Positions 11,695 to 47,822 of a stretch of 49,130 nucleotides of DNA are shown piece by piece. Position 1 is the first letter of the stretch, and each line of letters starts with the position of its first letter. The position numbers and the translations under genes were made by a program. This DNA comes from an uncultured Oscillospiraceae bacterium (GTDB taxonomy: Bacteria; Bacillota; Clostridia; Oscillospirales; Acutalibacteraceae). The DNA lies in the NCBI GenBank assembly GCA_949292425.1, contig CASEZK010000048.1, positions 1 through 49,130 on the forward strand, given 5' to 3'. The notes below the pieces were generated by a model. It did no database searches. It was given only the letters and a program-made list of their open reading frames with translations, and was not told where the DNA came from.

Positions 11695-11958
11695 ATGCCA
11701 AACTATGCTCTTATAGTTTTTTCTTTAGGATTAATTTTATTATTTATTTTCATGAAGGTAGTAATCAGGTCTAAATATCCGATATTAAGAACTGCCTGGA
11801 ACGTTTTGGAAGGCTCTGTAGTGCTGTGGCTGGTAAATATCACAGGAGCTTTCACGGGAATTACCATCCCTATCAGTTTGTTATCACTTTTAGTCGCAAC
11901 TTTATGTGGAATACCTGGAATTACAACCATGGTACTATTAAATACGATTTTTAATTAG
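11695..11958 (+). CDS. bofA: BofA-family inhibitor of pro-sigma-K processing
   Basis: BofA is an integral membrane protein that holds the SpoIVFB protease inactive until forespore signalling permits pro-sigma-K cleavage. The 87-residue protein has three hydrophobic segments. The family features are the middle [16 protein letters not shown] and the C-terminal [18 protein letters not shown] at 11695 has AGGTGA upstream. The gene lies 28 bases after DUF2508 and 11 bases before nrdR. Its presence is one of several signs that endospore formation is, or recently was, functional. Confidence 0.85.
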
Positions 11959-22567: not shown

Positions 22568-23365
22568 TTACCAAAAGAGAACAGATATTTTTCCTTTTTG
22601 CAATAATATTCTAATTTTTCTTTTTGAAATTATATAAAGGTAATAAAACAATCCGAATTTTAGTTTACTGTAAAAATAACGTAGATCTTTTTTTAAAATT
22701 TTAAACCTTTTTTTTAAAGAAGCAATATCGTTTGTATTTGCAGCAAAATTTTGTTTTAGTTTACAGTTGAATATAACAACTTTTTTGTGAAGATATCTCA
22801 TATCTCTCATAAATGCATGATCTACAAAATCGAGAAAATAGTTTTCATCGTACCTATAAGTTTTGAAAATTTCTGAAGATAATACCATGCCGCTGTTTAT
22901 CGCGCTGATTTCACCTATATTTACTTTATCTATGCTATTAGCTCTGTGGCAAAAATATTTTTTCATAATATTTGGCGATAAAAGCCCTATTTCGTCATAA
23001 ACAAGCGGCAAATATATGTCAGCTTTTTGGGTACGTTTTGTTTCAGAGAGTAAAGTAAAATATTCCAAAGGAACAGATGTATCATCATCGAAAAGGCAAA
23101 TCCATCCGGGAGATAATTTTACAATATCTTCAATGGCTGCGTTGTAAGCTGAAGACAACCCTTTGTTTCCGTTCATGGGTTTGTAATGTACATTTTTATA
23201 ATTACTTGCTATTTTATTATTGGCCGCATATTTTTTATCGTCGCTGTTATCGCATATAAAAATTTGAATATTGCTATCAATACTTTTCAAACAGTTGAAG
23301 GTTATTGATTCGCTTAAATTTTTATTATAAAGTACAACTATAGCATATATGTTTTCGCTTTTCAT
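22568..23365 (-). CDS. Family 2 glycosyltransferase
   Basis: The 265-residue protein begins YAIVVLYNKNLSESI and contains NKGLSSAYNAAIE and the metal-binding LFDDDTSVP, typical of GT2 rhamnosyltransferase-like enzymes that add sugars to surface polysaccharides. A C-terminal basic region may sit on the membrane. ATG at 23365 has GAGGT upstream. It is the last gene after an ABC-2 exporter pair on the same strand, so it probably helps build the exported glycan. The sugar donor is not identifiable. Confidence 0.82.
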   Translation of the reverse strand: MKSENIYAIVVLYNKNLSESITFNCLKSIDSNIQIFICDNSDDKKYAANNKIASNYKNVHYKPMNGNKGLSSAYNAAIEDIVKLSPGWICLFDDDTSVPLEYFTLLSETKRTQKADIYLPLVYDEIGLLSPNIMKKYFCHRANSIDKVNIGEISAINSGMVLSSEIFKTYRYDENYFLDFVDHAFMRDMRYLHKKVVIFNCKLKQNFAANTNDIASLKKRFKILKKDLRYFYSKLKFGLFYYLYIISKRKIRILLQKGKISVLFW

Positions 23366-23385
23366 TTTTTAGTGTACCTCAAAAT

Positions 23386-24120
23386 TTACTTAGTTGTGTG
23401 GCTGTACTCGTTACAAATTTCCTGAGTCTCGCCAATTTTTACAACCTGTCCAGCCTTTAACCACATAACCCTGTTGCATAACCTTTTTATCTGGTCTATA
23501 GAATGAGAAACTATTAAAATAGTTGTACCGTTTTTCATGAGCTCATTTATTCTCTGTTCACACTTTTGCTGGAAAAGGAAATCTCCAACAGACAAAATTT
23601 CATCTACAATTAATATATCAGGATCTGTTATAGTAGCGATTGCAAACCCGATTCTCGCAACCATACCTGAAGAATAATTTTTCATAGGTACGTCTATAAA
23701 CTGGTGAAGTTCGGTAAAATCGACTATTTCGTCGAATTTACTATCTATATAATTTTTCGAATATCCCAAGACAGAACCATTTAAGTAAATGTTTTCTCTT
23801 GCGGTTAAGTCCATATCAAACCCAGCACCCAGTTCAATTAACGGAGCGATACTTCCATTTACCTTTACACTGCCTTTACTTGGAGAATATATACCGGATA
23901 TAATTTTTAATATAGTTGATTTGCCACAACCGTTAAGACCAATGATACCGAAAACTTCACCTTTTTTTACATCGAATGAGACATTATTTAACGCTGTAAA
24001 TTCTTCAAAAAAAAGTTGTTTTTTAATGAACTTTAAAATGTATTCCTTGATGCTATCAACTTTTTCTTTAGCCATATTAAACTTGATGGTAACATTTTTC
24101 ACTTCAATAGCGTTTTGCAT
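23386..24120 (-). CDS. Polysaccharide ABC exporter ATPase (TagH/Wzt-like)
   Basis: The 244-residue ATPase has Walker A GLNGCGKST, the export-type signature YSSGMVARIGFA and Walker B ILIVDEILSVGD, characteristic of teichoic-acid and O-antigen exporters. It ends soon after the nucleotide-binding domain, so it lacks the C-terminal glycan-recognition domain of some Wzt proteins. ATG at 24120 follows GCGGAGGA. It is 13 bases downstream of its permease gene. Confidence 0.9.
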   Translation of the reverse strand: MQNAIEVKNVTIKFNMAKEKVDSIKEYILKFIKKQLFFEEFTALNNVSFDVKKGEVFGIIGLNGCGKSTILKIISGIYSPSKGSVKVNGSIAPLIELGAGFDMDLTARENIYLNGSVLGYSKNYIDSKFDEIVDFTELHQFIDVPMKNYSSGMVARIGFAIATITDPDILIVDEILSVGDFLFQQKCEQRINELMKNGTTILIVSHSIDQIKRLCNRVMWLKAGQVVKIGETQEICNEYSHTTK

Positions 24121-24133
24121 TTGAGTCCTCCGC

Positions 24134-24919
24134 TTAAATATATAAAATAAATGTTTTTTGTTTTTTCTTAAATATTATTGTACCGATTATCAACGAAGAA
24201 AGAGAAAAGCCTATACAAATGAGATTAAAATTAAAATCTGGGACATGATTGTACATAATGACCTCTCTAAAATAAGTGACGTAATAGTACATGGGGTTGA
24301 ACTTCATGACTTTAAATAGTTTTCCCTCTATAGCTGAGGCCGGATAAATAACAGGAGTTAAATACATCCACGTTGTTACGATGACAGAATATAGATGCTG
24401 TATGTCCCTAAACCTTACAGTCAAGGCGGCTAAGGCGAGCGAGATACCAAGGGAAAAAACATAGCAATATAAAATAGGAACTGTGAAAAGCAATGCTGAA
24501 AATCCAACTTTTACACTGGAAAATAAAATAACGATAAGTACAGCTATAAGTGAAAAGCCTAAATTTACAAGCGCAAAAGTAGTTTTTTCCAGAGGGAAAA
24601 TATATTTTGGCATATAGACTTTTTTTATCAAAGCGCCGGAACCTATAATGGATGATATAGAGCTAGTGGTAGCATCCGACATGAATGAGAAAATAACAGA
24701 GCCTGTTAAGAAATACACGTTAAAATTTTCAACATTAAATCGGAAAATCCTAGAGAAAACCATAGATATTACAATCATTGTAAATAGGGGATTGAGCACA
24801 CTCCACAATATTCCTAAAATAGAACGCCTGTATTTAACCTTTATTTCGCGGGATATCAAGTTGTATAGCAAAAACCTATATTTAAAAAAGTCATTAATTT
24901 TTTCTTTTATATAATCCAT
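24134..24919 (-). CDS. Polysaccharide ABC exporter permease (TagG/Wzm-like)
   Basis: The 261-residue ABC-2 permease has about six membrane segments. It shows the family's N-terminal LISREIKVKYRRSILGILWSVLNPL (read in two parts: REIKVKYR and LGILWSVLNPL) and a late YLTPVIYPAS. With the ATPase and GT2 gene it forms a small operon for exporting a cell-surface glycan or wall teichoic-type polymer. ATG at 24919 follows GGAGGAAATT. Confidence 0.9.
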   Translation of the reverse strand: MDYIKEKINDFFKYRFLLYNLISREIKVKYRRSILGILWSVLNPLFTMIVISMVFSRIFRFNVENFNVYFLTGSVIFSFMSDATTSSISSIIGSGALIKKVYMPKYIFPLEKTTFALVNLGFSLIAVLIVILFSSVKVGFSALLFTVPILYCYVFSLGISLALAALTVRFRDIQHLYSVIVTTWMYLTPVIYPASAIEGKLFKVMKFNPMYYYVTYFREVIMYNHVPDFNFNLICIGFSLSSLIIGTIIFKKKQKTFILYI

Positions 24920-32283: not shown

Positions 32284-32341
32284 TAAAGGGGACAAAAGCA
32301 GAATATAAATGCTTTATAAATGTAAAAGGAGAGATTATTTT

Positions 32342-33880
32342 ATGGAATACAGTGTTGATAAGGAGGTACTGAATACCTGTAAAATTACATTTGAGGGGTG
32401 TTCTGAAGAAGCTATAGATTTAGATTTTAATTTACCTGATTATTGTCCGGATATTCAAAAAATATTAAAATGTCAAGTTTACCCGAAAGTAAATGCAAGA
32501 AATATAGTTGGTGACAGGTTAAATGTTGAAGGTGTATCGATAGTAAATTTACTTTACCTAGATTCAGAGAAATTGTCAATAAGGTGTTGTGAACATTCAA
32601 GTCCTTTTTCCGTGTCGTTTAATTTAAAAGAACCAATGGAAAACGCGATAGCATTTACAAAAGTAAAAGTAGAATATATAAATTGTAGAGCCGTAACCCA
32701 AAGAAGATTAGATATTCATGGGGCATTTTCAATATGTGCAAAAATAAAACAAAAGAATGAAAAAAGTATAGTTTGCGAAATAAATGGCGACACAATAGAA
32801 CAAAGAAAAACTCAAGTAAGTCTAAGTGATTTAGTGGGCTTTTCTCAACAAATGTTTACCGTGAACGAAACTGTAGAGTTAGATTCAGCGTTACCGCCGA
32901 TAGAATTGATAATAAGAAGTAACGTGGAAGTTTTTATAAATGACTACAAAACTATAACTAATAAATTGATAATAAATGCTACTGCTAATTTAGATGTATT
33001 TTACATTAGCGACATAGAAACAGGGGAGACAGAAAAAGCAAACTATAGTGTGCCTATTAGTCAAATAGTGGATGTAAACGGCATGGAGGACGAATGCTTA
33101 TGTGACATAAACATTGACGAGTTAAACCATGATTTGCAGCTGAAAACAGATAGTAATGGTGAAGGTAACTTACTGGAAGTGGAAGCAAGATTTTCAATAG
33201 CATGTTTTGCTTATAAGGAAAAAGAGATAAATGTTTTAAACGATGTTTATTCAACTGACTATGAAATGGAAAACAAGAGCGAAAGAGTAACTTTACCAAG
33301 GTATATAGATGGCATAGATACAACTTGCGCTATGAAAAATGATGTTGAGATTAACGAGGCAAGATTAAAAGAAGTAATAAATGTATGGAACGAAATAATC
33401 GATATAACTGCAAATTATGATGGAGATAAGATACTTTTTAAAGGCAAGTTCAATATTTGTGTATTGGTACTGAATGAAGATGGAGAGACAGTATATTCAG
33501 AAAGGCTGGTAGACTTTGAGTACCCGTACAGCTGGAAAAGTGACTTTAAGGATGTGAATTTTGACCCGCAAGCATTGGTGCTGTCGCTTGATGCGGATAT
33601 AAAAAGTGACAAATTTTTAGAAATATCAGCTCAAGTTAAAATTACAACTCCAGTTTATACAAGTAGTCAATTTAGCTCAATTTGCGATTTAAGCATTGAC
33701 GAAGAAAAAGTGCTCAATAAAGACTCGGCTGCAGCACTTACTATTTATTACGCTAATGCAGGCGAAGAAATGTGGAACATTGCAAGAAAGTATAATACAT
33801 CTGTAAATTTAATAAAAAAAGAAAATGAAATAGATGAAGATGTTTTAAGCGAAAGGATGATGATATTAATTCCAATGTAA
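32342..33880 (+). CDS. sipL: SpoIVA-interacting spore protein SipL (DUF3794 + LysM)
   Basis: The 512-residue protein has a tandem DUF3794/SPOCS-type region over most of its length (note FNLPDYCPDIQKILKC near residue 29 and repeated beta-rich segments). It ends in a LysM domain (about 466-512; YYANAGEEMWNIARKYNTS). This architecture matches SipL of Clostridioides difficile, which anchors the spore coat through LysM binding to SpoIVA. spoIVA begins 45 bases downstream, supporting the call. ATG at 32342 follows AAAGGAGAG; the ATG 11 codons earlier has no good site. Confidence 0.88.
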   Translation: MEYSVDKEVLNTCKITFEGCSEEAIDLDFNLPDYCPDIQKILKCQVYPKVNARNIVGDRLNVEGVSIVNLLYLDSEKLSIRCCEHSSPFSVSFNLKEPMENAIAFTKVKVEYINCRAVTQRRLDIHGAFSICAKIKQKNEKSIVCEINGDTIEQRKTQVSLSDLVGFSQQMFTVNETVELDSALPPIELIIRSNVEVFINDYKTITNKLIINATANLDVFYISDIETGETEKANYSVPISQIVDVNGMEDECLCDINIDELNHDLQLKTDSNGEGNLLEVEARFSIACFAYKEKEINVLNDVYSTDYEMENKSERVTLPRYIDGIDTTCAMKNDVEINEARLKEVINVWNEIIDITANYDGDKILFKGKFNICVLVLNEDGETVYSERLVDFEYPYSWKSDFKDVNFDPQALVLSLDADIKSDKFLEISAQVKITTPVYTSSQFSSICDLSIDEEKVLNKDSAAALTIYYANAGEEMWNIARKYNTSVNLIKKENEIDEDVLSERMMILIPM

Positions 33881-33925: not shown

Positions 33926-35404
33926 TTGGAAGAAAGAAACATTTATAAAGATATTGCACAAAGAACAGGTGGTGATATTTACATAGGGGTAGTAGGACCT
34001 GTTAGGACCGGAAAGTCAACATTTATAAAGAAATTTATGGATAATTTAGTTATTCCCAACATAGAAACAGAGTTAAAAAAAGATCGTGCAAGAGATGAAC
34101 TACCACAATCTGCTGCCGGCAGAACCATAATGACTACAGAGCCAAAGTTTATACCTGAAACGGCTGTTGAGATAAACGTTGACAACGTGGCAAGTTTCAA
34201 AGTAAGATTAATAGATTGTGTAGGCTATATAGTGCCTAGTTCGCTGGGGTACATAGAAGATGATCAGCCGCGTATGGTCATGAGTCCGTGGTTCGAGGAG
34301 CCTATACCGTTTAATATGGCAGCTGAAATTGGCACTAAAAAGGTAATAACAGAGCATTCTACCATAGGGTTGGTTATAACCACAGATGGAAGCATAAGCG
34401 ACATACCAAGAGAAGAATACGAAGAAGCAGAAGAGAGGGTAATAGAGGAACTAAGAGATATAAATAAACCTTTTATAGTGCTTTTAAATACAGCTCACCC
34501 TAATAGCGCTCAAACGAAGGAATTAGCACAAAAACTTAGCGAAAAGTACAATGTATCTGCTATACCGGTTAACTGTCTAGACTTAAGTGAAAACGAAATA
34601 AAAAGAATTTTAGCGGGTGTGTTGTTTGAGTTCCCAGTAAAGGAAGTAAAAATCGATATGCCGAAATGGCTAACCTCACTTGAAAATGACCATTGGCTGA
34701 GGGCATCTATCTATTCTGCTATAAAGGAAGCTTCGAAAGATATAGGAAAGATACGAGAGATACAGTCTATATTAGAAAAAATTCGGCATTGTGAACATAT
34801 AAATGATGCTAAGGCTGTTTCTATAGATTTAGCAGTTGGTAATGCACGTATATCGTTAAGCCTAGAAGAAAGTTTGTTTTACAAAGTGTTGAGCGAAAAA
34901 ACGAACCTTGACATAAGTGATGAGGGTATGTTGTTAGATTGTATTTTGGAGTTATCTAAAGTTAAAGAAAAATATGATAAAATCAGTACAGCGTACGATG
35001 ATGTACTTGAAACAGGCTATGGAATAGTAATGCCGTCAACAGAAGAGCTAACTCTAGAGGAACCGGAGATTATAAAGCAAGGTGGAAAATATGGTATAAG
35101 GCTGAGAGCGGCAGCTCCGTCTGTACATATGCTAAAGACGAGAATAGCTACAGAAGTCACACCTATTGTGGGGTCAGAGCAGCAGTCTGAGGAGCTTGTA
35201 AATTATTTATTAAAAGAGTTTGAAGAAAATCCAAGTAAAATCTGGGAATCAAATATTTTAGGGAAATCTTTGTATGAGTTGGTAAATGAGGGGCTTCACA
35301 ATAAACTTTATAGAATGCCAACAGATGCAAGGGCTAAGGTTAAGGAAACCATAGAAAAGATTATAAATGAAGGCTGTAATGGTCTAGTGTGCATAATTTT
35401 ATAA
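33926..35404 (+). CDS. spoIVA: Stage IV sporulation protein A
   Basis: SpoIVA is the ATP-hydrolysing cytoskeletal protein that polymerises on the forespore to form the coat basement layer. The 492-residue protein has MEERNIYKDIAQRTGGDIYIG, read in part, at its start. Walker A GPVRTGKS lies at residues 24-31 and the family segment FKVRLIDCVGY further on. The C-terminus NGLVCIIL is also characteristic. The start is TTG at 33926 with GGAGGTAA upstream. It is co-oriented with sipL, and spoVM lies on the opposite strand just beyond it. Confidence 0.97.
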   Translation: MEERNIYKDIAQRTGGDIYIGVVGPVRTGKSTFIKKFMDNLVIPNIETELKKDRARDELPQSAAGRTIMTTEPKFIPETAVEINVDNVASFKVRLIDCVGYIVPSSLGYIEDDQPRMVMSPWFEEPIPFNMAAEIGTKKVITEHSTIGLVITTDGSISDIPREEYEEAEERVIEELRDINKPFIVLLNTAHPNSAQTKELAQKLSEKYNVSAIPVNCLDLSENEIKRILAGVLFEFPVKEVKIDMPKWLTSLENDHWLRASIYSAIKEASKDIGKIREIQSILEKIRHCEHINDAKAVSIDLAVGNARISLSLEESLFYKVLSEKTNLDISDEGMLLDCILELSKVKEKYDKISTAYDDVLETGYGIVMPSTEELTLEEPEIIKQGGKYGIRLRAAAPSVHMLKTRIATEVTPIVGSEQQSEELVNYLLKEFEENPSKIWESNILGKSLYELVNEGLHNKLYRMPTDARAKVKETIEKIINEGCNGLVCIIL

Positions 35405-35504: not shown

Positions 35505-35591
35505 CTATGTTAAATTTTCTTTTTTTATTTTAAAGATCCGTCTTAAGAAAAAACTTAAAAATTTAGGGCTCTTAACTACAACAACTTTCAT
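35505..35591 (-). CDS. spoVM: Spore morphogenetic peptide SpoVM
   Basis: This 28-codon ORF encodes a short amphipathic helix beginning MKVVVVKSPKFLSFFLRR. It aligns with SpoVM of Bacillus (MK....KLPKFL....R). Pro9 and Arg17, both important in the Bacillus peptide, are kept. SpoVM marks the curved forespore membrane and recruits SpoIVA, encoded immediately opposite. A strong AGGAGGT lies nine bases upstream of ATG 35591. The ORF is easy to miss because of its size; context, start site and sequence pattern agree. Confidence 0.85.
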   Translation of the reverse strand: MKVVVVKSPKFLSFFLRRIFKIKKENLT

Positions 35592-37334: not shown

Positions 37335-37421
37335 GTGAAACCTGGTCCTACGTTGGGTCAACTAAATGTAAAACTTTTCAGGACACAATACTATTTTTGG
37401 TTTGTGTCCTCTGTAAATTAG
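37335..37421 (+). CDS. Putative 28-codon leader peptide of corA (MgtL-like N-terminus)
   Basis: A GTG start at 37335 has AAGGAG eight bases upstream and opens a 28-codon frame ending in TAG at 37419-37421. Its first 16 residues read MKPGPTLGQLNVKLFR. They resemble the Mg2+-sensing enterobacterial leader MgtL ([17 protein letters not shown], from memory): M-x-P-x-P-T at the start and KLFR later. The corA ribosome-binding site overlaps the stop codon, so the two are coupled. Codons 16-18 form one arm of a hairpin. Expression has not been shown, and the resemblance is short. Confidence 0.55.
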   Translation: MKPGPTLGQLNVKLFRTQYYFWFVSSVN

Positions 37422-37426
37422 GAGGA
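37380..37426 (+). promoter_or_regulatory. Mutually exclusive hairpins controlling corA ribosome-binding site
   Basis: Arm aggacacaa (37380-37388) pairs perfectly with ttgtgtcct (37402-37410). The end of that second arm, tcctc (37407-37411), can instead pair with gagga (37422-37426), which is the core of the corA Shine-Dalgarno. Only one pairing can form at a time. A ribosome on the leader codons would decide which, the layout of a translational attenuator. Confidence 0.55.
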
Positions 37427-37429
37427 GCT

Positions 37430-38362
37430 ATGATTACTTATTATAAGACGATAAACAACAGGGTAAAGAAAATAAAACAATACGAAGAAAACTGTTGGAT
37501 AAATTGTATAACGCCCGATGAAGACGAAATAGAAAGCTTGATAGATGACTTTAATATCGATCCAGAATTCTTAAAGGCTGCGCTGGATGCCGAAGAATCA
37601 TCACATATAGACAGCGAAGACGGAAATACGTTGATTATAATAGATGTGCCGATAGTACAAAAAACGGAGAAAAATATCAGCTATCAAACGATGCCGCTCG
37701 GTATTATAATTACAAGTAAAAACGTCATAACTATTTCACTGAGGGAAAATACTGTAATAGGTGAAATTTCAGACGGCGTTGTAAAAAACATAAATACCGA
37801 GTTGAGTGCACAGTTCGTTTTAAATATAATATTGCGAACGGCTTATAAATATTTGCAGTATTTAAAGCAGATTGACAAAATAAGTGATCATGCAGAAAAA
37901 GAACTCAGACGTTCAATGAAAAATAAAGAATTGATGCAATTTCTAGAAGTTGAGAAATCTTTGGTTTATTTTTCCTCCTCACTTAAATCAAACGAAGCTA
38001 CATTAAAAAAGATAATGCGTGGCAGGATCATAAAACTTTACGAAGAGGACCAGGATTTGCTAGAGGATGTTCTCATCGAAGTTAGACAAGCTATTGAAAT
38101 GTCTAGTATTCAAATGAACATTATATCCAGCACCATGGATGCATTCGCTTCCATTATATCTAACAACTTAAATATCGTCATGAAAATTTTAGCCTCCATA
38201 ACTTTAATTTTTTCCATCCCGACTGTTATTTCCGGATTTTACGGCATGAATATAGGTGTACGTGCGATGCCGCTTGACGATTATTGGTGGTTCCCATGGG
38301 TACTTTCGGGCGTGTTGATGCTTATCTCCGGGTATGTCTTAAAGAAAAAAGATATGCTATAA
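37430..38362 (+). CDS. corA: CorA-family magnesium/divalent cation transporter
   Basis: CorA forms a pentameric Mg2+ channel. The 310-residue protein has a long cytoplasmic helical N-terminal domain. Two C-terminal membrane helices follow, with the signature YGMN (SGFYGMNIG) between them. A basic tail (LKKKDML) ends the protein. I start at ATG 37430 after AGGAGGAG; the frame open from 37397 has no site. Its leader region appears regulatory (see the leader entry). Confidence 0.92.
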   Translation: MITYYKTINNRVKKIKQYEENCWINCITPDEDEIESLIDDFNIDPEFLKAALDAEESSHIDSEDGNTLIIIDVPIVQKTEKNISYQTMPLGIIITSKNVITISLRENTVIGEISDGVVKNINTELSAQFVLNIILRTAYKYLQYLKQIDKISDHAEKELRRSMKNKELMQFLEVEKSLVYFSSSLKSNEATLKKIMRGRIIKLYEEDQDLLEDVLIEVRQAIEMSSIQMNIISSTMDAFASIISNNLNIVMKILASITLIFSIPTVISGFYGMNIGVRAMPLDDYWWFPWVLSGVLMLISGYVLKKKDML

Positions 38363-38444: not shown

Positions 38445-39953
38445 TTAATTTTTGCTTTCATTTTCACTAACTGTATCATTAACAGCCGCCTCGTATTTGC
38501 CACTTAGACGGAATACAGATACAATCCATCCAATAACGGACACTGCAAATATCGCTAAAATAGCAATAACGTTGTTCATAACGTCTGGGCTGAACGCATA
38601 CATGAACTGTTGAATAAGCGATGCACCAGCTTTACCAGCTCTTCCTCCAACAACTTCAACTGCAGCCTGACCTTTTGTCTTTGTGTCTTCATCAAGAGGA
38701 ATGTAAACCATGCTCTTAGTTGTATCAAACAGAGTATACTTAACACTTTTAGCCATTGAGTCTTGGATTATACCGGCCCAAACTGCAAGTGCTAAAGCTG
38801 AAAATCCAAATAGTTGTGGACTTACATATCTGTTATACAAAGTGACACCAAAGAATATTGAACCTGCAAACAAGAATATAGCTGGAGTAACAATAGCTGC
38901 TGTTTTCCATTTACATCTTCTAAGAATATTCGAAGCAAGTATAGTAACAAATATAGTTAATATACTTATGATCTTTGACATAGTACTATACATATGCATA
39001 TATTCACCTTGAGTTGTACAAAGTGATTTCATTTGGTCTTTCATAACAACTTCAGAGAAATTAATAGCCATGCCGTAGCCAATAACTAACATAGCTACAA
39101 GACCCATATAAGAGTTTGTGAAAAGAATTTTGATTCCTTCCATGATACTGACTTTTTCTTTTTTCTTCTTTTTACTTTTTATCTGATTTGGATCAAAACA
39201 CCTAATGTCAGTTAAAACCCACTTGTGTATTAAAGTATACATAACTAAAGCTAATATACCACTCAAGCAGGCACATATCATTAAGAACAAAACGTTGCGA
39301 TCATTTAAATTTTTGGAAGATTTAGCAATAGCTTCTGCTGCAACAAAGGAACCAATGTTTCCTATAATTGGGAATAAACCGAAAAACCTTTTTACTTCGT
39401 TTTTCATTGTGGTAGCATTTGCAAATTGCCAGAACAAAGACGATATTGCCATTGTCCCCCATATTTCTGAAAAGATGTAGAACAAGGTGATTGGCCAGTT
39501 AAAAAGACAAGTTAAAAATGTATGAAAAGCTTTCGGGCAAGAATTTAATATTTCGGTGATTTGCTCTGCTGGCATTATTAAAACATCTAAATTTGGATAA
39601 ACAAACAAGCCAAATATTGCAAAAAACGCAACAAAGAAAGTTATAATTATGTAAAAAGTCTTTTTAGACCCAAATTTATTTACAAGCAACGTAAACAACA
39701 TAACAGCCAAAAATGCACAAGGCAAAACATACCACATTTTTAATGCACTGATTAAAGGAGTTGTTTTTGTGCCGAAAGCGATGTGACTTCTATATTGCAA
39801 AAAAGCATCCTTAAGGTCTCTAACAAGAGTATAAACAAAGAGAATAAAAAACATCAAAAAGCTCATAGGGACAAATTTTTTAAGTTCATGCCTATGAATA
39901 GGCCAGAAAAAAGCGCGTAACTTACTAAACTCTTTAGGTTGAGTAGTCGTCAT
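38445..39953 (-). CDS. tlc: ATP/ADP translocase (nucleotide transporter, Tlc/NTT family)
   Basis: The 502-residue protein has about twelve hydrophobic segments and the hallmarks of Rickettsia/Chlamydia/plastid nucleotide transporters: SEIWGTMAISSLFWQFAN, INFSEVVMKDQMKS, and the C-terminal KYTLFDTTKSMVYIPLDED, then KTKGQAAVEVVGGRAGKAGAS. Family members exchange host ATP for ADP, or import nucleotides with protons; which activity applies here cannot be told from sequence. Several lysine-rich and acidic stretches (KSKKKKKEK loop) are local features. ATG 39953 has AAGGAG nine bases upstream. The gene is monocistronic with its own promoter and long leader. It is unusual for Clostridia and implies acquisition and an intracellular or energy-parasitic life. 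Confidence 0.95.
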   Translation of the reverse strand: MTTTQPKEFSKLRAFFWPIHRHELKKFVPMSFLMFFILFVYTLVRDLKDAFLQYRSHIAFGTKTTPLISALKMWYVLPCAFLAVMLFTLLVNKFGSKKTFYIIITFFVAFFAIFGLFVYPNLDVLIMPAEQITEILNSCPKAFHTFLTCLFNWPITLFYIFSEIWGTMAISSLFWQFANATTMKNEVKRFFGLFPIIGNIGSFVAAEAIAKSSKNLNDRNVLFLMICACLSGILALVMYTLIHKWVLTDIRCFDPNQIKSKKKKKEKVSIMEGIKILFTNSYMGLVAMLVIGYGMAINFSEVVMKDQMKSLCTTQGEYMHMYSTMSKIISILTIFVTILASNILRRCKWKTAAIVTPAIFLFAGSIFFGVTLYNRYVSPQLFGFSALALAVWAGIIQDSMAKSVKYTLFDTTKSMVYIPLDEDTKTKGQAAVEVVGGRAGKAGASLIQQFMYAFSPDVMNNVIAILAIFAVSVIGWIVSVFRLSGKYEAAVNDTVSENESKN

Positions 39954-40136: not shown

Positions 40137-40165
40137 ATTATATCAAAAAACAACCGCATTTTCAA
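40137..40165 (-). promoter_or_regulatory. Promoter of the ATP/ADP translocase gene
   Basis: Minus-strand TTGAAA (40165-40160), a 17-bp spacer and an extended -10 TGATATAAT with TATAAT at 40142-40137. It predicts a 5' leader of about 175 bases. Confidence 0.8.
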
Positions 40166-40445: not shown

Positions 40446-41306
40446 TTAATAAGATGTGCATTCGTTTGCTAAAGATATAAACTGTTCCATCGTCAAGTTT
40501 TCAGCCCTTAAATTAATATCTAACCCTAACTTCAACAGAACTTCCTCAATAACAACTTTGTCTAAGTTTAACCCTTTAGATAGTGAATTAAGTATAGTTT
40601 TTCTTCGTTGTAGAAATACAGATTTTACTACTTTAAAGAAAACTTCTTCATCTTTTACTTTCACAGAGTTGTCATCGTTTATGTCAAGCTTTATTACCGC
40701 CGAGTCAACCTTCGGGGAAGGCATAAAATCGGATCTACTAACCGGAAATAAGATCTTAGGCTTACTGTAATAATTCACAGTTACTGTTATGTTGCTTGAT
40801 TCCCTGGTACCAACACCTGCGCAAATCCTTTCCGCAACTTCTTTTTGTACCATAGCTACTATAGATTTCAGTCTTAGCTTACCTTCCAACAATTTTATTA
40901 TCACAGGAGATGTTATATAGTACGGGAGGTTTGCGCAGACCACTATGTTTTCAACGTCATTGAATTCCTCCAGGATTAGTTCCTTTAAATTTATTTTTAA
41001 TATGTCGGCATTTAAAACTTTTACATTGCTAAATTCAAACAAAGTTTCGCTTAATACAGGCAAAAGCCTTCGGTCTATTTCAATTGATATAACCTTTTTG
41101 GCTCTTTTGGCAAGCTCATTTGTCAAGACGCCAATCCCCGGGCCTATTTCAATTACACCTGTGCTTTCATCTAATTCACTTAGATCTGCCATTTTGGGAC
41201 AAATTTCTGGATTTATAATGAAATTTTGCCCAAGAGAATGTGAAAATTTAAAATTATGTTTTTTTAAAATCTTCCTAATGTTATTTATGTTAGATAAATT
41301 TTCCAT
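40446..41306 (-). CDS. rsmA: 16S rRNA dimethyladenosine transferase
   Basis: RsmA (KsgA) dimethylates two adjacent adenosines at the 3' end of 16S rRNA. The 286-residue protein has LGQNFIINPEI, the SAM-binding VIEIGPGIGVLTNELA and the catalytic NLPYYITSPVI. FLQRRKTILNSL lies in the C-terminal domain. ATG 41306 follows AAGGATGG. It lies downstream of glmS behind a terminator. Confidence 0.95.
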   Translation of the reverse strand: MENLSNINNIRKILKKHNFKFSHSLGQNFIINPEICPKMADLSELDESTGVIEIGPGIGVLTNELAKRAKKVISIEIDRRLLPVLSETLFEFSNVKVLNADILKINLKELILEEFNDVENIVVCANLPYYITSPVIIKLLEGKLRLKSIVAMVQKEVAERICAGVGTRESSNITVTVNYYSKPKILFPVSRSDFMPSPKVDSAVIKLDINDDNSVKVKDEEVFFKVVKSVFLQRRKTILNSLSKGLNLDKVVIEEVLLKLGLDINLRAENLTMEQFISLANECTSY

Positions 41307-43469: not shown

Positions 43470-43976
43470 ATGCTAAAAAAAATTAGTAATAATCAATTTA
43501 CCGGTACTGAAGAAAAAAAACAAAAGTTATTTAAAGTTATTGAAAAGTATAAATACCAACCCGGTGCCACTATGCCGATTTTGCAGGAAGCCCAAGAAAT
43601 ATATGGATATTTACCGTTGGAAGTTCAAACAATAATAGCTGAAAAATTAAATATCCCTTTAGAAGAAATTTTTGGTGTGTCTACTTTTTATTCACAGTTT
43701 TCACTCGTGCCAAAAGGTAAATATAACATATCTGTTTGTCTAGGAACAGCTTGTTATGTAAAAGGTTCTGGTGAAATACTTAAAAAGGTTAGCGCTCTTT
43801 TAGGAATAGGGGCAGAAGAATGCACTAAAGATGGTTTATTTTCACTTACGGCTTGCCGCTGTGTGGGTGCTTGCGGTTTGGCTCCGGTAATGACAGTAAA
43901 TGATGACGTTTACGGCAGGCTTAAACCTGAAGACATCGAGGGTATCCTTAATAAATATAAAGATAGAGAAAATTAA
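43470..43976 (+). CDS. hydC: Electron-bifurcating hydrogenase subunit C (NuoE-like, 2Fe-2S)
   Basis: The 168-residue thioredoxin-like ferredoxin subunit has the two cysteine pairs of a 2Fe-2S site, CLGTAC and CRCVGACGLAP. The helical N-terminus contains MPILQEAQEIYGYLP. It accompanies HydB and HydA in NADH/ferredoxin-linked [FeFe] hydrogenases that produce or consume H2. ATG 43470 follows AAAGGAG. A 294-base interval to hydB contains a palindromic element and a shortened gene. Confidence 0.92.
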   Translation: MLKKISNNQFTGTEEKKQKLFKVIEKYKYQPGATMPILQEAQEIYGYLPLEVQTIIAEKLNIPLEEIFGVSTFYSQFSLVPKGKYNISVCLGTACYVKGSGEILKKVSALLGIGAEECTKDGLFSLTACRCVGACGLAPVMTVNDDVYGRLKPEDIEGILNKYKDREN

Positions 43977-44270: not shown

Positions 44271-46058
44271 ATGTACCGTTCAACTGTATTGGTGTGTGGT
44301 GGCACAGGCTGTACATCTTCTGGCAGCCAACAATTAATTGATGTACTAAATGAAGAAATAAAAAAGCATGGTATACAAAAAGAAGTAAACGTAATAAAAA
44401 CAGGATGTTTCGGACTGTGCGAACTGGGACCTATTATGATAGTTTATCCAGAAGGCAGCTTTTATAGTAGAGTAGATGTAAAAAACATACCAGAAATTGT
44501 GATTGAACACTTGATAAACGGTAACGTAGTCACTAAATTTTTATATAAAGATACCGTAAAAGAGGACAGTATCATTTCTTTGAATGAAACTCCATTTTAC
44601 AAAAAGCAAATGCGAGTTGCACTTAAAAACTGCGGTGTTATCTCTCCGGAATGTATCGATGAATACATAGCGATGGACGGATACTTTGCACTTGCTAAAG
44701 TTTTGAGCGAAATGCAACCTGAAGACGTAATAAAGGTAATAAAGGACTCGGGACTTCGCGGCAGAGGCGGTGGAGGTTTTCCTACAGGAGTTAAGTGGAG
44801 TTTAGCTGCTGCTAATAAATCGGACCAAAAGTTTGTATGCTGTAACGCCGACGAAGGTGACCCTGGAGCTTTTATGGATAGATCTATCCTTGAAGGCGAC
44901 CCTCATGTGGTGCTTGAAGCTATGGCAATTGCAGGTTATGCCATCGGTGCTTCGCGCGGTTTTATATACGTTAGGGCCGAGTACCCCGTTGCAGTGAGAC
45001 GACTTAAAATCGCTATAAAACAAGCTTATGATTATGGTCTCCTCGGGGGAAATATTTTTTCATCTGGGTTCGATTTCGACATAGAAATACGCCTAGGAGC
45101 AGGTGCTTTTGTCTGTGGTGAAGAAACTGCACTTATGATGTCTATTGAAGGCAAAAGGGGCGAACCTCGACCGCGACCTCCGTACCCAGCTGTGAAGGGG
45201 TTATTTGGTAAACCAACTATTTTAAACAATGTTGAAACTTACGCAAACGTCCCACAGATAATTTTAAATGGTGCTAATTGGTTTAATTCGATTGGAACTG
45301 AAAAATCTAAAGGAACCAAAGTTTTTGCTTTGGGTGGCAAAATAAGACGAACAGGGTTAGTGGAAGTTCCTATGGGTACTACCTTGAGAGAAATTGTTGA
45401 GGAAATCGGCGGAGGTATACCCAATGGCAAAAAATTTAAAGCAGCTCAAACAGGTGGTCCGTCCGGAGGATGTATACCTGCCAAATATCTCGACATAGAA
45501 ATGGACTATGATAACTTACTTGAAATAGGCTCTATGATGGGATCTGGCGGACTTATAGTTATGGATGAGTCCACCTGTATGGTAGATATAGCGAAATTTT
45601 TTCTTGAGTTTACTGTAGATGAATCTTGCGGTAAATGCACCCCTTGCAGAGTAGGCACGAAGCGTCTATTAGAAATGTTAACGGACATTACTGAAGGAAA
45701 AGCCGACATGCAAGAACTTGAAAAAATGGAAAATTTGTGTCATTACATTAAGGAAAATTCTTTATGTGGCCTGGGGCAAACAGCACCGAACCCAGTTTTA
45801 TCTACATCGCAGTATTTCCGAGACGAATATGTAGAACATATAAAAGAGCATAAATGCCGCGCTGGAGTATGTAAAGCAATGTTGAGGTATACTATATTGG
45901 AAGACAAATGTAAAGGCTGTTCAGCATGCTCTAGAATTTGCCCTGTGGGTGCCATCTCAGGTACTGTAAAAAATCCGTTCAAGATAGATTGGGACAAATG
46001 TATACGCTGCGGAGCTTGCTTAAATACTTGCAAATTTAAAGCCATTATTCGAGAATGA
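44271..46058 (+). CDS. hydB: Electron-bifurcating hydrogenase subunit B (NuoF-like flavoprotein)
   Basis: The 595-residue protein has a thioredoxin-like 2Fe-2S domain (about 1-95; VCGGTGC, KTGCFGLCELGP). Next is the FMN/NADH-binding NuoF core (GLRGRGGGGFPTGVKW, CNADEGDPGAFMDR). A 4Fe-4S site (ESCGKCTPCRVGTKRL) and a C-terminal two-cluster ferredoxin domain (CKGCSACSRICPVGAI, CIRCGACLNTC) follow. It links NADH and ferredoxin to the hydrogenase. All cluster ligands appear intact. Confidence 0.95.
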   Translation: MYRSTVLVCGGTGCTSSGSQQLIDVLNEEIKKHGIQKEVNVIKTGCFGLCELGPIMIVYPEGSFYSRVDVKNIPEIVIEHLINGNVVTKFLYKDTVKEDSIISLNETPFYKKQMRVALKNCGVISPECIDEYIAMDGYFALAKVLSEMQPEDVIKVIKDSGLRGRGGGGFPTGVKWSLAAANKSDQKFVCCNADEGDPGAFMDRSILEGDPHVVLEAMAIAGYAIGASRGFIYVRAEYPVAVRRLKIAIKQAYDYGLLGGNIFSSGFDFDIEIRLGAGAFVCGEETALMMSIEGKRGEPRPRPPYPAVKGLFGKPTILNNVETYANVPQIILNGANWFNSIGTEKSKGTKVFALGGKIRRTGLVEVPMGTTLREIVEEIGGGIPNGKKFKAAQTGGPSGGCIPAKYLDIEMDYDNLLEIGSMMGSGGLIVMDESTCMVDIAKFFLEFTVDESCGKCTPCRVGTKRLLEMLTDITEGKADMQELEKMENLCHYIKENSLCGLGQTAPNPVLSTSQYFRDEYVEHIKEHKCRAGVCKAMLRYTILEDKCKGCSACSRICPVGAISGTVKNPFKIDWDKCIRCGACLNTCKFKAIIRE

Positions 46059-46079: not shown

Positions 46080-47822
46080 ATGGGAAATACAGTAAATATT
46101 AAAATCAATAATATTGAAGTTGCTGCAAAAAAAGGCCAAACCATTTTAGAAGCTGCCAGAGATGCCGGCATTCATATTCCTACGCTTTGTTATTTAAAAG
46201 ATATAAATGAAATTGGCGCTTGTAGAATCTGTGTAGTAGAAGTCAAAGGAGCTAAAAACCTAGTGGCATCATGTGTAGCGCCAGTAACTGATGGCATGGA
46301 GATATTTACAAATACTGAACATGTAAAAAAATCTAGAAAAACTACGCTTGAACTTCTGCTTTCTACACACAAACGGGCATGCCTTTCTTGCAGTAGAAAC
46401 GGCGAATGCGAATTACAGAGTTTAAGCAAACAGTTCGGTATACAGGATGAAGGTAACTTCGATGGGGCATTGCCGGATTACAGATATGATGACAGTTGTC
46501 TGCATTTAATTCGCGATAACAGCAAGTGTATATTATGCAGAAGATGTGAAGCGGCTTGCAGAGAACAGCACGTAGGGGTCATCGGTGCAAACAATAGAGG
46601 GTTTGATACTCAAATAGGATGTGCTTTTGATAAAGACTTAAACGATGTCACGTGCATATCTTGCGGGCAGTGCATAGTAAACTGTCCGACAGGCGCACTA
46701 AGGGAAAGAGACAGTGGAGACGACGTGATGGAAGCTATAAACGATCCATCGAAATATGTTGTTGTCCACACAGCTCCGTCAATTAGAGCTACTTTAGGCG
46801 AAAGTTTCAATATGCCCATAGGCACCAACGTGAAAGGGAAAATGGTAGCAGCATTGCGTAGACTAGGGTTTGATAAAGTTTTCGATACGGACTTTGGTGC
46901 AGACTTGACAATAATCGAGGAGGCGCATGAGTTCATAGATAGACTGAAAAATGGTGGTACTCTTCCTATGATAACGTCTTGTTCACCAGGATGGATCAAG
47001 TTTTGCGAACACTATTACCCAGAACTCTTGAAAAATCTCTCAAGCTGTAAGTCCCCGCAACAGATGCAAGGGGCCATAATAAAGACCTGGTATGCAAAAA
47101 AGAACAATATAGACCCTAAAAGTATAGTGGTAGTTAGCATAATGCCATGTACAGCGAAGAAATTTGAAATAACACGCTATGATCAAAACGCAGCGGGTGT
47201 TCCAGATACTGATTTTACATTAACGACAAGAGAACTTGCCAGAATGATAAAAAGTGCTTGCATAGATTTTCAGTCACTGCCTGATGAAGATTTTGATCCT
47301 ATTCTTGGCGTTTCTACAGGAGCTGGAGCTATTTTCGGCACAACTGGTGGTGTAATGGAAGCAGCTCTTAGAACTTCTAACGATATTTTAACTGGCAAAA
47401 GTCAGGGGAATTTGGAGTATCATGAGTTGAGAGGGCCTGCGGGTATCAAGGAAGCTGTATATAAGATTGCCGAGTTCGACGTAAAAGTGGTTGCTGTAAG
47501 TGGCCTTAAAAATGCGGTTGTTATTTTGGATAAAATAAAAAATGGTACAGCTGATTATCATTTTATTGAAATAATGTGCTGTCCTGGCGGCTGTGTAAAC
47601 GGAGGTGGGCAGCCGTTACAAAGCGCAGATGTCAGAAATTTTTCTGATTTAAATAAACTAAGAGCAGAAGCCCTTTATAAGGAGGATAGAAGTCTTTCTC
47701 TGAGAAAATCTCACGAAAACCCCGCTATAAAAGAACTGTACAAGGACTTTCTGGGCGAACCCGGTAGCCATAAAGCACATGAGATTCTACACACAAGCTA
47801 TAAAAAAAGAAATCGGTTTTAA
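46080..47822 (+). CDS. hydA: [FeFe] hydrogenase catalytic subunit
   Basis: The 580-residue catalytic subunit has an N-terminal 2Fe-2S domain and the His-Cys3 cluster region (THKRACLSCSRNGECELQ). Two 4Fe-4S sites (CILCRRCEAAC, CISCGQCIVNCPTGAL) follow. The three H-cluster signatures are TSCSPGW (about 300), MPCTAKKFE (about 355) and EIMCCPGGCVNGGGQP (about 497). All H-cluster cysteines are present, so it should be active once matured. No maturase gene is in the window. Hydrogen metabolism in a possible energy parasite suggests redox balancing, which is inference. Confidence 0.97.
   Translation: MGNTVNIKINNIEVAAKKGQTILEAARDAGIHIPTLCYLKDINEIGACRICVVEVKGAKNLVASCVAPVTDGMEIFTNTEHVKKSRKTTLELLLSTHKRACLSCSRNGECELQSLSKQFGIQDEGNFDGALPDYRYDDSCLHLIRDNSKCILCRRCEAACREQHVGVIGANNRGFDTQIGCAFDKDLNDVTCISCGQCIVNCPTGALRERDSGDDVMEAINDPSKYVVVHTAPSIRATLGESFNMPIGTNVKGKMVAALRRLGFDKVFDTDFGADLTIIEEAHEFIDRLKNGGTLPMITSCSPGWIKFCEHYYPELLKNLSSCKSPQQMQGAIIKTWYAKKNNIDPKSIVVVSIMPCTAKKFEITRYDQNAAGVPDTDFTLTTRELARMIKSACIDFQSLPDEDFDPILGVSTGAGAIFGTTGGVMEAALRTSNDILTGKSQGNLEYHELRGPAGIKEAVYKIAEFDVKVVAVSGLKNAVVILDKIKNGTADYHFIEIMCCPGGCVNGGGQPLQSADVRNFSDLNKLRAEALYKEDRSLSLRKSHENPAIKELYKDFLGEPGSHKAHEILHTSYKKRNRF

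Follow-up and report, generated by a model that had tools for sequence, protein, structure and literature searches.

A candidate ATP/ADP translocase alongside sporulation and fermentation genes in a small-genome member of the Clostridia

Analysis of a 49,130-nucleotide stretch of DNA (the window), which is contig C48 of a clostridial MAG (G000), revealed an open reading frame on the minus strand at 38445–39953 that encodes a protein of 502 amino acids, with an ATG start at 39953. The plus strand of the same interval is dense with stop codons, and the minus-strand frame has exactly these bounds. The protein matches the TLC profile PF03219 with 429.9 bits (score cut-off, 21 bits; E 1.7e-128) over profile positions 3–491 of 491. 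A strong Shine-Dalgarno sequence (AAGGAGAAATGTAAA) lies ahead of the ATG, and a stem-loop and a T run are found downstream of the stop codon. About 185 nt upstream of the start, at about 40137–40165 on the minus strand, there is a promoter-like site (TTGAAA-17-TATAAT with a TG-extended −10) that matches 11 of 12 consensus positions; as a promoter of this gene it is suggestive only, a consensus match not being evidence of function. The neighbors are a plus-strand gene for a CorA-family Mg/Co transporter at 37397–38362 (TIGR00383, E 2.2e-31, below the cut-off) and, upstream, rsmA/ksgA on the minus strand at 40446–41306 (TIGR00755, 244.7 bits).

When the protein was compared with solved structures using phmmer, the nearest was NTT1 of Chlamydia pneumoniae (9j3n, E 9.2e-93), with 39% identity across 476 aligned positions, followed by Arabidopsis AtNTT1 (9j3j, E 2.5e-73), with 34% identity across 461. 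In the alignment K48, E163, E301 and K441 are the same residues in both of these proteins, and they line up with the four charges (K, E, E, K) on which ATP/ADP exchange by AtNTT1 depends; K48 and K441 are invariant across 32 aligned sequences. An AlphaFold2 model built from 6 sequences, of moderate mean pLDDT (62.5) and a pTM of 0.61, had NTT1 structures as all of its top five PDB matches (TM up to 0.80, for 9j3n), with other MFS transporters ranking far behind. The full-length profile match, the kept charged residues and the predicted NTT1 fold confirm, on sequence grounds, that the product is a full-length Tlc/NTT nucleotide transporter, as the original prediction had it. The C. pneumoniae transporter (9j3n, 9j3o) resembles it along its full length in identity, fold and charged residues, yet belongs to a Gram-negative, non-spore-forming obligate parasite of another lineage; AtNTT1 (9j3j, 9j3l, 9j3m) has the same points of likeness but supplies ATP to a plastid, whereas the protein described here sits in a bacterium. 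Theft of host ATP is best documented from microsporidia and from Gram-negative bacteria with an obligate intracellular life.

Homology, the conserved residues and the predicted fold indicate that the protein most likely lies in the membrane and carries out ATP/ADP exchange. It would work in the plasma membrane as an antiporter, most likely bringing host ATP in and ADP (with phosphate) out, possibly carrying further nucleotides too, and would swap ATP and ADP by alternating access like its solved relatives. Members of the NTT family are able to carry other nucleotides, so that ATP/ADP as the substrate is not certain, and related isoforms of Chlamydiae and Rickettsiales take such nucleotides. 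The transporter might then move nucleotides other than ATP and ADP and serve nucleic-acid synthesis instead of energy supply, and some relatives have 2–4 divergent NTT copies. The published account of the clade likewise permits this for its members (Takahashi et al. 2023, PMC10579323). We nevertheless consider such a role improbable here, given that among solved structures the protein is closest to ATP/ADP exchangers, those from C. pneumoniae and Arabidopsis, that the four charged residues tied to this exchange are kept and that a single NTT copy was seen in the window genome.

The window also contains sporulation genes. On the plus strand are spoIVA at 33926–35404 (TIGR02836, 733 bits, full length) and, at 32309–33880, the gene of its partner SipL, with SPOCS domains in two stretches (PF12673, E 1.1e-26) and a LysM domain. 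Beside spoIVA, a minus-strand frame of 28 amino acids at 35505–35591 (MKVVVVKSPKFLSFFLRRIFKIKKENLT) was recognized by eye as spoVM-like, and a bofA-like gene lies on the plus strand at 11695–11958 (TIGR02862, 39.8 bits, E 4.2e-10; curated cut-off, 53). The four spore genes that the original prediction placed here are in the window, BofA with a score under its cut-off and the SpoVM-like peptide as an assignment by eye.

The window genome comprises 1,017,798 bases in 64 contigs and is 97.9% complete and 0.17% contaminated; the GC content is 35.2% in the window and 32–38% in sampled stretches of the genome. These values lie within the range (about 0.86–1.4 Mb, 30–39% GC) of the "small genome clade" of Acutalibacteraceae described by Takahashi et al. 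2023 (ISME J, PMC10579323), which includes Ca. Improbicoccus, Ca. Paraimprobicoccus and related MAGs. As described there, the clade comprises three protist endosymbionts of termites and 23 MAGs from a termite, ruminants and humans, an NTT is present in all but one, and the NTT tree distinguishes types I and II. The protist-associated Clostridia with translocases to which the original prediction referred do exist in print. G000 appears to belong to this clade, with which, as published, it shares a size of about 1 Mb, low GC, an NTT/TlcC, gut-derived relatives and a spore-forming background.

Among 398 genomes sampled from the family of G000, which is also that of the other translocase-bearing genomes, 23, spread over 10 of 135 genera, matched the TLC model, and none of 14 control genomes did; two of the 23 matches are weak or divergent only (G090, 52.6 bits; G325, 24 bits). 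The positive genomes measure 0.8–1.8 Mb, G325 excepted, and for those genomes that are listed with a handle the median is 1.1 Mb where an NTT is present and 2.2 Mb where it is absent. The closest relative, G001, has an NTT that is 80% identical to that of G000 and identical in sequence to that of RGIG5006, a MAG obtained from the rumen of roe deer. A maximum-likelihood tree separated 28 clostridial NTTs from the chlamydial and plant sequences, its only two references, with support of 100/100; the G000 and G001 proteins are sisters in the same tree (100/100). A scan of genome contigs with the NTT returned only five close relatives, and viral contigs yielded no NTT homologues. The gene was probably inherited from the common ancestor of this clade of 0.8–1.8-Mb gut Clostridia. 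Several clade members (G203, G337, G345, G122, G277 and G090) encode a further, divergent TLC-like protein, their second or third, of about 450–470 amino acids (50–65 bits). In the termite MAG G006 two secreted-looking Ras-family small GTPases adjoin the NTT (L033:3620–5504; PF00071, E 4.2e-36 and 1.9e-27), and such GTPases are among the features reported for the published endosymbionts (PMC10579323).

The original prediction had raised the concern that the contig might be chimeric. The third-position GC of the NTT gene is 0.294, compared with 0.308 ± 0.033 for 12 other window genes, and an independent assembly carries the NTT (46.6–48.1 kb), sigK (23.8 kb), pyruvate kinase (92.8 kb) and acetate kinase (2.5 kb) together on one contig of 112,774 bp (G233:C30). 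This linkage and the matching composition answer the concern, and the contig does not look chimeric. That the NTT and the spore genes come from different organisms and were joined by the assembler is conceivable for a MAG in 64 contigs; the composition, the linkage of NTT and sigK in G233, the contamination of 0.17% and the clade-wide co-occurrence of NTT and spore genes make it extremely improbable.

Elsewhere in the window genome the sporulation inventory is extensive. Spo0A has both its receiver and DNA-binding domains, and a second Spo0A-like protein scores just below the cut-off. SpoIIAA, SpoIIAB and SigF form one operon, SigG adjoins a Ger germinant-receptor operon with an intact receptor, and SigK and SpoIVB are also present. 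SpoIIE is an open frame of 781 amino acids that scores under the curated value, as it does in every family genome searched. SpoIIR, SpoIID, SpoVT, SpoVAE, GerW, SpoIIIAA and SpoIIIAE were found as well, and other spoIIIA genes were assigned by position and sequence. Profile and protein searches of the readable assembly did not find SigE and SpoIIGA, both of which are present in the sister genome G001; this absence is not proof, because some short contigs read entirely as N. TrmK and NIF3, the neighbors of SigE and SpoIIGA in G001, lie on contig C57 of G000 beside leuS and without the two spore genes, so that a loss of SigE and SpoIIGA is possible. An argument for an assembly gap hiding SigE, based on a 6.5-kb block of G001 that has no DNA match in G000 though other orthologous regions match easily, was dropped once TrmK and NIF3 of that block had been found on C57 by protein sequence. 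SpoIIR is the signal that triggers SigE processing, and its being intact in G000 argues mildly that SigE exists.

Across the 22 NTT-bearing genomes Spo0A was detected in all, although G345, which is 70% complete, showed only a terminal fragment, and SpoIIE in 21, with a partial match in G337. Matches to sigma-70 region 2 numbered five in 17 of these genomes, four in 4 (G000 included) and two in G006, compared with 2 to 15 in the NTT-negative relatives searched. SigE, SigF, SigG and SigK were all identified in G001, G139 and G233, where nine of the factors were placed by model or by position in spoIIA/spoIIG operons, SigG and SigF of G233 by sequence and operon position and SigK of G139 from its N-terminal half; the five factors of the remaining NTT genomes were counted, not classified. 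The termite MAG G006, with its two sigma-70 matches and no match to SpoIIE, may have lost sporulation. As judged from genes, sporulation thus appears to persist in the greater part of the clade but not throughout. The sigK gene is interrupted inside the conserved ARCIENE motif in the close relatives G139 and G300 (L061:5418–5774 and L067:1820–2176); in G300 the insert encodes a phage-type Sak annealing protein and resembles a skin-type element. Where G139 has spoIIGA-sigE, the window has a TagGH-like exporter and a glycosyltransferase (22568–24919), adjoining plsC/cmk.

The gene set, with Spo0A, SpoIIE, SigF, SigG and SigK present and SigE and SpoIIGA not found in the readable part of the G000 assembly, supports sporulation in G000 and most of the clade. 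The spore-forming background of the original prediction was right. We also considered that the lineage no longer sporulates and that its spore genes are decaying, for which the missing SigE and SpoIIGA of G000 and the state of G006 would speak. This is unlikely in view of the many large intact spore genes of G000, SpoIIR and the Ger receptor among them, and of the SpoIIGA and SigE of its sister. Endospores have, moreover, been seen in published members of the clade: transmission electron microscopy showed them frequently in two of the three endosymbiont species, which partly answered in 2023 whether such Clostridia kept sporulation (PMC10579323). The main text of that paper has no word that begins with "spore" or has "sporul" anywhere in it, and no spo0A, and its supplements may hold a gene inventory. 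In the NTT genomes of about 1 Mb, what seems to be the sporulation sigma cascade survives and nearly all other alternative sigma factors are gone, a pattern which suggests that the spore is indispensable to these bacteria and perhaps their route between hosts.

The glycolysis genes called for by the original prediction were inventoried as well. Full-length, intact genes for GAPDH, PGK, iPGM, enolase and pyruvate kinase are present in G000, the last with a C-terminal and an extra PEP-mobile domain, and TPI was recognized by eye. Enolase is unlikely to be contamination, because its contig also carries ribosomal protein operons. A motif scan of the G000 stretches read found no phosphofructokinase, a result that is not decisive but leaves upper glycolysis unproven. 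PFOR is complete, acetate kinase (AckA) is present, and a V-type ATPase operon has its A and K subunits by domain match and others too. Within the window a three-subunit [FeFe] hydrogenase is encoded on the plus strand: a NuoE-like subunit of HydC type at 43470–43976 (NCBIfam HoxE/NuoE models, E 2.9e-46), a NuoF-like subunit of HydB type at 44271–46058 (PF01512, PF10589, Fer4) and the catalytic subunit of HydA type at 46080–47822 (PF02906, E 6.1e-99; PF02256). With this gene content the organism can probably make its own ATP by fermentation.

PGK was found in every genome of the set searched. Enolase was detected in 3 of 22 NTT genomes versus 6 of 12 NTT-negative ones (Fisher p 0.04, relatedness ignored) and pyruvate kinase in 11 of 22 versus 11 of 12 (p 0.02, again ignoring relatedness); G000 and G233 are the only NTT genomes with both enzymes, and the sister genome G001 is without enolase. 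We rejected the absence of enolase as a specific mark of energy parasitism, given that six of the 12 NTT-negative relatives have no detectable enolase either; its loss in the family thus extends beyond the parasitic clade. The six are G002, G004, G007, G019, G023 and G024, genomes of 1.1–2.6 Mb and high completeness.

The published endosymbionts are described as having neither enolase nor any known net ATP-generating system (PMC10579323). G000 differs from them, as published, in its genes for enolase, pyruvate kinase, PFOR, AckA, a hydrogenase and a V-ATPase; it apparently also has shikimate-pathway and folate-biosynthesis genes, which were recognized by eye (L086:11054–14703 and L092:11318–13600) and by which it appears less reduced. 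A strict energy parasite like Improbicoccus, in which the glycolytic genes are relics or biosynthetic and all net ATP arrives through the NTT, would fit the clade and the genome size, which are those of the published obligate parasites (PMC10579323), as well as the counts of enolase and pyruvate kinase among the NTT genomes (3 and 11 of 22), the absence of enolase from G001 and the phosphofructokinase result. For G000 itself this is a minority possibility in our estimate, weighed against five intact lower glycolytic genes, PFOR, AckA, hydrogenase and the V-ATPase operon, and an enolase gene on the ribosomal protein contig. The "energy parasite" of the original prediction finds only half support in G000; judged by its genes, the bacterium seems to import ATP while also fermenting for itself, and thus not to be a parasite that depends on its host for energy.

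Our main reading, to which we give a probability of roughly 0.7, joins an ATP/ADP antiporter, a gene inherited within the clade, kept sporulation, and the cell's own ATP supplemented by import. The cell would probably use the transporter inside a gut eukaryote, at least part of the time, the imported ATP would probably add to that from fermentation, and the sporulation and germination program would probably be kept to survive between hosts. We infer the direction of transport and its substrate, the intracellular life, the working spores and their use as a route between hosts. Tentatively, and at slightly under even odds, we propose that G000 represents an intermediate state: a gut Clostridium that forms spores and imports host ATP while still fermenting its own. 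Were it true, ATP import would have been gained before self-sufficiency was lost, and selection would be maintaining sporulation as the stage by which an intracellular, ATP-importing lineage disperses, one that discarded nearly all other sigma-factor regulation. Because enolase and pyruvate kinase occur together in G000 and G233 but in no other NTT genome, the clade is suited to asking in which order ATP import and the loss of ATP synthesis occurred. The central idea, an ATP importer in spore-forming Clostridia, was published in 2023 (PMC10579323) and is extended here by a gene-level sporulation inventory, by the wide retention of an apparent sporulation sigma set and by a clade member whose ATP-generating pathway seems to work.

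Three further loci of G000 were noted. About ten Nif11-leader-like peptide precursors stand in a row on contig C22 (30.7–34.4 kb; L088:10665–14382) next to a pair of NHLP bacteriocin export transporters (TIGR03796 and TIGR03797, both above cut-off), a large peptide-export locus for a 1-Mb genome. Contig C39 carries a nitrogenase-like cluster (L093:13511–18974) of a NifH-family protein and two NifD/K-like proteins, below equivalog cut-offs and flanked by radical SAM proteins. A run of phage tail/baseplate-like genes on contig C58 (L091:12925–19999), recognized by eye, is probably the remains of a prophage.
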